Origin: Burkholderia sp. GAS332
GTDB taxonomy: Bacteria > Pseudomonadota > Gammaproteobacteria > Burkholderiales > Burkholderiaceae
Direction: 5' to 3'
Assembly: GCA_900142905.1 (NCBI GenBank)
Contig: FSRV01000001.1
Span: 2,232,001-2,296,000 of the forward strand
Length of the DNA stretch: 64,000 nt
In this document: positions 3,565 to 3,743 of the stretch, piece by piece
How positions within the stretch are numbered: the stretch's first letter is position 1
Layout of the letters: each line of letters starts with the position of its first letter
The notes under the pieces: model-generated
Database searches by the model: none
Told to the model about the DNA's origin: nothing
Seen by the model: only the letters and a program-made list of their open reading frames with translations
Made by a program: the position numbers and the translations under genes

Positions 3565-3730
3565 CGGTACCCATACTTGCAGGAAAAATACGAGCTCGAG
3601 GCTCAGTCAACTGTTCGGGTTAAGAGGATGAAAAGGACAGTCGCTCCGGCTTTTCTGCGGGCTCGAGGCACTTTAGGCAGACGAGCTGACTGTCCATGTG
3701 GCGGCAACTGATCGGGTCGACGCCACAGGA
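3565..3730 (-). ncRNA. Predicted IS110 bridge RNA, copy 1
   Basis: Reading the minus strand upstream of the transposase, three structures follow one another. First is a hairpin TGTGGCG...CGCCACA (3721-3727 with 3697-3703). Next is an 8-bp stem GGACAGTC/GACTGTCC (3688-3695 with 3635-3642) enclosing a 45-nt loop. The 5' side of the loop contains TGCCTA (complement of 3674-3679), identical to the left half of the target. The 3' side contains AGAAAAG (complement of 3650-3656), complementary to core plus right target CTTTTCT. Third, ACAGTTG (3608-3614) and TGCAAG (3576-3581) partly match the two halves of the donor junction ACGGTTG-CT-TGTA. This is the target-loop/donor-loop order known for IS621-type bridge RNAs. 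Transcript ends are approximate. Confidence 0.7.
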
Positions 3731-3733
3731 GGG

Positions 3734-3739
3734 AATATA
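3734..3739 (-). promoter_or_regulatory. -10 half of the IS110 circle-junction promoter, copy 1
   Basis: The minus strand reads TATATT four bases inside the left end of the element (after CT-TG). It pairs with TTGACT at the opposite end with a 17-bp spacer after circularisation. In the integrated element it has no well-placed -35 hexamer. Confidence 0.68.
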
Positions 3740-3743
3740 CAAG

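Follow-up and report, generated by a model that had tools for sequence, protein, structure and literature searches.

Recombination directed by a bridge RNA was published in 2024 for the IS110-family element IS621 of Escherichia coli (PMC11208160), such that the class itself is not new. The IS621 recombinase is reported to require a set of DEDD residues and a serine (PMC11208158), and a promoter is described as forming at the junction of the circular form of that element (PMC11208160). IS1111-group elements employing a seekRNA rely on a recombinase of the same superfamily and on the same guide principle (PMC11187229). IS110-family elements have also been described in REPs, namely, ISPpu9 (7 of 7 copies), ISPpu10 (7 of 7 copies) and ISPa11 (6 of 6 copies), in other hosts and in repeats other than that considered below (PMC1525189), with ISPa11 being assigned to the IS1111 group, having its RNA downstream of the gene (PMC11187229).

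The window, i.e., the whole 64,000-nt stretch of DNA analysed here (C1:2232001-2296000 of a 10.4 Mb genome comprising 3 contigs), contains an IS110-group element whose upstream non-coding end would, with a probability of roughly 94%, give rise to a bridge RNA that pairs with one arm of a host repeat and with the joined ends of the element itself.

An IS110-group element within a dispersed palindromic repeat

The element, its recombinase gene and the surrounding repeat are arranged as follows.

2438-3743, minus strand: IS110-group insertion sequence, 1,306 bp including one copy of the CT core (comparison with intact repeats, together with sequence)
2615-3562, minus strand: recombinase (transposase) gene, 315 aa, DEDD and serine residues, start codon ATG at 3562-3560 (PF01548, PF02371, NCBIfam)
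3744-3749, minus strand: left target half TGCCTA, host repeat
2431-2437, minus strand: core and right target half CTTTTCT, host repeat
4363-4379, plus strand: target copy without an insertion, TGCCTACTTTTCTTTGC (0 matches in 100 shuffles)
17349-18654, minus strand: second copy of the element, at the same insertion point in a different repeat copy, with an identical bridge region

The predicted recombinase scores above the cut-off for both PF01548 and PF02371, and reaches 211.3 bits (cut-off 140) against the NCBIfam model 'IS110 family RNA-guided transposase'; a weak match to the NCBIfam model TIGR_Tas_endo (20.2 bits, far under the cut-off of 100) was also seen. ISCro4 (125.7 bits) and IS621 (118.8 bits), each aligned over most of the length of the protein, are the sole distinct solved sequences to match at E<=0.001. 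Indeed, D13, E57, D99, D102 and S237 correspond to the catalytic positions of IS621, with all five being kept, such that the DEDD RuvC-like domain and the Tnp domain with its conserved serine that mark members of this family are both present.

The borders of the element were drawn from intact genomic repeats that align to both flanks without the middle, with a 3-nt overlap (CTT) at the junction; matches to the left flank run up to query position 160 and those to the right flank begin at position 1464, side by side. As CTT is common to donor and target, the core can be placed only to within one base. With that one-base ambiguity, a CT core is found at both junctions of the element, the other copy lying at 2436-2437. 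The genome contains the element in three copies, of which two lie in the window and one on contig C2, all inserted at one identical point of the dispersed palindromic repeat and all containing the same 175-nt bridge region. In the third copy (L137, G000:C2:3746170-3747114), the recombinase gene is interrupted by an in-frame TAG, with the bridge region being unchanged; this copy may be reliant on the other two. Among named relatives, those closest to the element are found in Burkholderia sp. OK233 and Paraburkholderia. Three additional, different IS110-family matches exist on the third contig of the genome containing the window (C3:421841-422278, C3:431248-431676 and C3:298256-298603), the last being slightly under the family cut-off.

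The element occupies one arm of the palindromic repeat, the opposite arm reading CACCTACTTTTCTTTGC. The exact intact target, TGCCTACTTTTCTTTGC, is found at 43 sites in the genome, and 110 sites are found when up to two mismatches are allowed, as compared to 0 for a reversed control. Across the 12 genomes searched, 4 to 306 exact sites of the common variant could be counted per genome. When the element and its flanks served as query, 142 matched pieces were obtained from the genome, almost all corresponding to flank repeats. The flanks of the element also match Rfam family RF02421 (Bp1_684 sRNA) at 2321-2417 (minus strand) and 4389-4483 (plus strand), with scores of 36.9 and 42.6 bits, slightly under the gathering threshold of 44. 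Given that the 142 pieces are mostly flank repeats, the Bp1_684 'sRNA family' may, at least in part, be a dispersed repeat adjoining the target palindrome. A tandem array of the hexamer TGCCAC (21.5 copies, 97% matches) is located at 3966-4094 of the window, some 220 bp from the element.

The predicted bridge RNA and the circle junction

The non-coding left end of the element, directly upstream of the ATG at 3562, holds the predicted bridge RNA region, within which the following segments were assigned.

3569-3743, minus strand: predicted bridge RNA region (covariance model R1, 192.8 bits, this copy being in the training set; consensus fold)
3697-3727, minus strand: 5' stem-loop TGTGGCG...CGCCACA (7 pairs with double-sided changes)
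3688-3695, minus strand: 5' arm of the outer stem of the target loop, GGACAGTC, pairing with GACTGTCC
3674-3679, minus strand: putative left target guide TGCCTA, the same letters as the left target half at 3744-3749
3650-3656, minus strand: putative right target guide AGAAAAG (core plus five bases), complement of 2431-2437
3635-3642, minus strand: 3' arm of the outer stem, GACTGTCC; relatives keep the stem with other letters
3608-3614, minus strand: putative left donor guide ACAGTTG, 6 of 7 bases identical to ACGGTTG at 2438-2444
3576-3581, minus strand: putative right donor guide TGCAAG, pairing with CTTGTA at 3738-3743 with one G-T wobble

These assignments bear out the first-pass annotation, which had described, on the transposase strand, an 8-bp stem holding a 45-nt loop, with TGCCTA on the 5' side of that loop repeating the left half of the target and AGAAAAG being complementary to the core and right half, CTTTTCT, followed by a donor loop, in the order known from IS621. 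The stem (GGACAGTC/GACTGTCC) is present, albeit as the outer stem only, enclosing the 45 nt at 3643-3687, and both target words, as well as both proposed donor matches, were confirmed at the positions listed above; the target loop likewise precedes the donor loop, with the same strand logic and the same upstream position as in IS621. As the two A residues that follow TGCCTA in this copy are unpaired with the core, the core would be read by the right guide alone. With respect to the joined ends, the donor guides match at 6 of 7 positions on the left and 6 of 6 on the right, counting the wobble. The left donor guide ACAGTTG is invariant across 19 aligned bridge regions, and the donor left half mismatches its guide at one base in this lineage. 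In L112 and L114, the right donor guide is TACAAG, a perfect complement.

The first-pass annotation had further considered a chance match of the target words to be unlikely. That these matches reflect chance or base composition, i.e., stretches rich in A or T within an RNA of no such role, draws what strength it has from AGAAAAG being a word of low complexity. When the 45-nt loop was subjected to 2,000,000 mononucleotide shuffles, TGCCTA appeared 12,301 times and AGAAAAG 3,013 times, while both appeared, in any order, in only 27, which argues against chance and in agreement with that earlier view. The fold of this single sequence is, by itself, not special and so speaks for chance: a z-score of -0.90 was obtained, 31 of 200 shuffles were equally good and the minimum-energy structure did not take the two-loop form. 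For this reason, the fold was tested on relatives.

Of 144 genomes belonging to the genus, 20 contained relatives at E<=1e-60 (with up to 15 candidates scored in each), as did 28 of 398 genomes sampled from the family (up to five in each); as the number of candidates scored per genome was limited, copy counts for relatives are lower bounds. Named contigs gave 25 loci, 56 regions were taken and 19 distinct bridge regions were aligned. The conserved two-loop fold that the first-pass annotation had sought in such an alignment was found: RNAalifold returned a 5' hairpin and, for target and donor alike, a stem-loop of the internal-loop type that encloses an inner hairpin. Double-sided changes were observed in 10 of the 31 consensus pairs; 7 of these pairs belong to the 5' hairpin, 3 to the target loop and 0 to the donor loop, whose stem, being nearly invariant, tells little. 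In the copy at 2438-3743, inspection by eye shows a mismatch at one of the four pairs of the inner target hairpin. As MAFFT did not place the outer target stem correctly in divergent rows, this stem was checked row by row using a separate script. Each of the 19 rows contains a helix of 7 pairs or more, with differing letters (GGACAGTC/GACTGTCC, GGCAGTC/GGCTGCC and GGAAGCGG/CCGCTTCC), a count biased towards success since the script sought the best helix; in L176, the script chose another, longer helix, with GGAAGCGG/CCGCTTCC also being present.

Of 35 relatives held out, covariance model R1, built from these regions, recovered 11 at E<=0.01 (two partially) and 15 at E<=1, these E-values being rough and some of the 35 loci being near-duplicates or truncated; at E<=1, the remaining 20 of the 35 gave no match. 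None of 4 control loci containing only the repeat was matched, and one additional partial match was obtained on the wrong strand of L184. An Rfam scan of 2300-4500 returned no family overlapping 3569-3743 at E<=10, and no bridge-RNA family; all of its matches fell under the threshold, including those of Bp1_684 to the two flanks.

Two segments, one at each end of the element, resemble parts of a promoter.

2451-2456, minus strand: -35-like TTGACT at the right end, which would meet the -10 element over the circle junction
3734-3739, minus strand: -10-like TATATT at the left end (in-silico junction of right and left ends)

When the two ends are joined in silico, the sequence TTGACT-17-TATATT is obtained, pointing to a sigma70-like promoter that would span the circle junction. 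A script found the pattern TTGANN-17-TATNNT in 21 of the 25 distinct junctions, as compared to 19 of 100,000 shuffled versions of the junction of this element; 20 of the 78 loci considered lacked both ends as defined by regular expression. At the L172 junction, the same 17-nt spacing exists, with the greedy pattern having returned a longer one; the pattern was absent from the junctions of L112, L113 and L115. No promoter match was found in the integrated form between 3400 and 4000.

In the proposed mechanism, the element would be excised as a circle in which the joined ends create the TTGACT-17-TATATT promoter, presumed to be active, which would drive transcription of an RNA of some 175 nt and then of the recombinase. 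The first loop of the RNA would hold the target, with TGCCTA directed to the bottom strand and AGAAAAG to the top strand, including the core, and the second loop would hold the circle junction via ACAGTTG and TGCAAG, allowing the DEDD/serine recombinase to exchange strands at the CT core. We infer expression, binding and activity of this bridge RNA system from sequence, a system of the IS621 type being expected to yield a transcript of about 177 nt to which the recombinase binds.

Guides and targets among relatives

As a conserved AGCCCG-like word precedes the right guide, the position of this guide could be fixed without reference to the target. Of 48 loci, 39 were usable, with 9 being dropped for want of an anchor or of a readable pair of ends; each distinct target was represented by its first listed row and the core CT was included. 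In this fixed register, right guides fit their own target at 7 of 7 positions for 13 of the 19 distinct right targets and at 6 of 7 positions for the other 6, as compared to 6 perfect pairs out of 342 when guides were swapped between targets. The summed fit was reached in 0 of 200,000 permutations. Among rows sharing those targets, L138, L166 (G-T wobble) and L171 (mismatch) fit worse. For the left guide, taken as the best-matching 6-mer within a span of 28 nt and compared to 17 distinct left targets, a mean of 4.41 of 6 matches was obtained with the guide's own target, as opposed to 3.72 with swapped targets; 6 of 200,000 permutations did as well, 2 of the 17 were perfect and agreement was weak in distant relatives. 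The rule used here was a second attempt, taking the last anchor and six left bases versus five previously. The earlier rule, which selected a wrong anchor in many rows, had been equalled in 1 of 100,000 permutations on the right and in 925 of 100,000 on the left; it was altered after viewing the stretch that it had chosen, not by seeking a match.

As such, target guides vary with the target, the left being complementary to the bottom strand and the right to the top strand, strongly so on the right and more weakly on the left. The first-pass annotation had proposed that guide bases in homologues would change with their flanking targets, as was indeed seen, and had named the same loop in other targets as the finding that would speak against its reading; relatives in other targets instead carry other guides that fit their own targets. 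Together with the fold shared by the relatives, these changes support its suggestion that the element probably uses an IS621-type bridge RNA. In L173, TGCTTA is found in both guide and target. Exceptions include L147, lying in the CACCTA arm, L143-L145, lying in TGCCCA, and L177, the left flank of which does not fit, while 5 of 5 copies in genome G118 combine a guide ending in TGCCTT with the target TGCCTA.

Distant relatives with targets of greater complexity, namely, CTATCAA, CTTCGGG, CTCATTA and CTGAGTT, contain a matching guide in the same register. This, together with paired changes that extend down to a single base, is difficult to reconcile with chance, which the guide-target test largely refutes and which is the least probable of the explanations weighed here, to the point of being barely credible. 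A second IS110 lineage, about 50% identical, was also encountered (L181-L184, in genomes G047 and G052), with target CTATCCT and right guide AGGATAG; GGAGGTG and ATGG are found shortly downstream of the insertion in 3 of these 4 copies, as if just before a gene start.

The location of the region, directly upstream of a start codon, would equally suit a cis-acting 5' untranslated region or a transposase leader regulated by sRNA, without any guide acting in trans; for ISPpu9, control of the transposase by two sRNAs and the 5' region of the mRNA has been reported (PMC8450116). Regulation of this type does not predict guide letters that track the genomic flank, and as the whole explanation it is very unlikely, although leader and guide roles are not mutually exclusive.

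The relation between guide and target could be followed at a single position of the right guide. Among 40 copies with AGAAAAG or AGAGAAG and a right target half, guide A is found with target T in 22 and with C in 1, while guide G is found with C in 14 and with T in 3 (Fisher 3.9e-7, with copies treated as independent, which they are not, given that copies within one genome and among related genomes are non-independent). In a sister genome, G124, 7 copies contain AGAGAAG, of which 7 of 7 lie beside CTTCTC, read in L142 across an apparent 20-bp deletion of the right end. The intact sites remaining in this genome comprise 46 of TGCCTACTTTTCTTTGC versus 1 of TGCYYACTTCTCTTTGC; on the other arm, 13 of 62 intact CACCTACTTYTCTTTGC sites are CACCTACTTCTCTTTGC. 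By contrast, occupied TGC-arm sites in G124 are of the rare kind in 6 cases and of the common kind in 0 (Fisher 3.0e-7, or 2.3e-6 when L143 and L144, which share 297 nt of identical left flank, are counted once).

In genome G005, six near-identical copies (L166-L171) contain two right guides that differ by one A/G (4 G, 2 A), such that a single element is present there in two guide alleles. The G copies occupy 2 T and 2 C sites, and the A copies 1 T and 1 C site. As G copies are found in both kinds of site, exclusion of T targets by a G guide is not universal; tolerance of rG:dT is known for IS621 too (PMC11208160). L171 is the only case of an A guide beside a C target, and contains the T variant in its left flank and the C variant in its right flank. 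An intact repeat of this mixed type gave 0 matches in 5 genomes, including G005, where 26 C-variant sites exist. Given these two-variant flanks and the lack of an intact mixed repeat in the genomes searched, a later rearrangement is the likelier reason for L171, which was still counted as a mismatch. Two further genomes were considered as natural experiments and set aside as non-discriminating, namely, G118, with 7 C versus 4 T intact sites and 5 of 5 insertions in C, and the genome containing the window, with 9 C versus 43 T intact sites and 3 of 3 insertions in T. Across the sequences compared, a difference of one guide base coincides with which of the two repeat variants is occupied.

A preference is also evident at the level of the arm. 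Among close copies, the left flank could be read in 42 (the 48 rows minus L139, which has no left end, and minus the divergent L176, L177, L190, L112 and L114), of which 40 are found in the TGC arm, with only two, L147 and L174, being in the CACCTA arm; the guide of L174 is CGCCTA. Intact sites of both arms are of the same order of abundance in the genomes searched, as illustrated by G047, with 306 of TGCCTACTTTTC and 0 of TGCYYACTTCTC versus 328 of CACCTACTTYTC on the other arm.

Recognition of the palindrome by the recombinase protein alone, with guide-like words being remnants of insertions or products of recombination between leader and repeat, has to be weighed against these observations. 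The target is a palindrome, and REP targeting has been described in five IS families (PMC1525189). Moreover, the flanks of L171 represent different variants, indicating that recombination among copies probably occurs. A protein might in principle discriminate between the two arms, the left halves of which differ at two bases, and the bias of 40 of 42 is therefore insufficient on its own to decide against such recognition. It would not, however, readily account for a left word that is direct and a right word that is inverted, in a fixed register and within a conserved fold, both changing with the target, nor for closely related recombinases with different guides occupying different repeat variants; furthermore, the homologue IS621 was shown to use such an RNA (PMC11208160, PMC11208158). 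Choice of the repeat by protein alone was set aside mainly on the strength of the paired guide-target changes, and is more improbable even than the leader-regulation explanation. Guidance by a bridge RNA thus remains the preferred reading.

Comparison with known systems

ISCro4 (structure 9t56) is the solved recombinase closest in sequence (125.7 bits), a comparison concerning the recombinase alone. In the IS1111 group, the RNA is usually located downstream of the gene and the guide order is reversed (PMC11187229); here, by contrast, the RNA region matched by R1 is found upstream. A literature search of partial coverage, which leaves absence unproven, returned no report with a title or displayed abstract dealing with this element or with a Burkholderia-type repeat as an IS110 target, and the word 'Burkholderia' is absent from the main text of the report describing REP-targeting elements (PMC1525189).

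As one recombinase lineage meets one repeat family in two one-base variants, each with matching guides, the element offers an unusually clean test, provided by nature, of how specific a guide is at a single base, one that involves no design. It is tentatively proposed, at slightly less than even odds, that this lineage evolves by single guide bases, with the A or G of the right guide deciding the repeat variant, G, which pairs with C and wobbles with T, serving as a stepping stone and the left guide fixing arm and orientation. If this is true, the repeats would represent a self-renewing landing ground of fixed orientation, with the guide tracking the drift of the repeat.

The IS621 features listed that lend themselves to judgement from sequence are all found at this locus. 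The two elements share a homologous recombinase with the same catalytic residues and an RNA region upstream of the gene in the left end, in which a 5' hairpin is followed by a target loop and a donor loop, with the left guide corresponding to the top strand and the right guide complementing the top strand. They further share a CT core, a sigma70-like promoter predicted at the circle junction and natural insertion into palindromic extragenic repeats. Unlike IS621, the present element would be directed to another host repeat by other guides, and in this copy its left guide matches six bases and leaves the core unpaired. Its right target guide is naturally 7 nt in length (core plus five bases), whereas that of IS621 is 4 nt and was lengthened experimentally to 7 nt for specificity (PMC11208160). 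As some IS621 orthologues possess longer right guides (PMC11208160), a 7-nt guide is not new in kind. A natural guide of this length in the presence of many sites is nonetheless useful for gauging how strict bridge-RNA targeting is in nature, as well as for choosing tight recombinases for genome engineering. Taken together, these comparisons make it likely that the element adds one more member to the IS110 bridge-RNA family and does not represent a new type of system.
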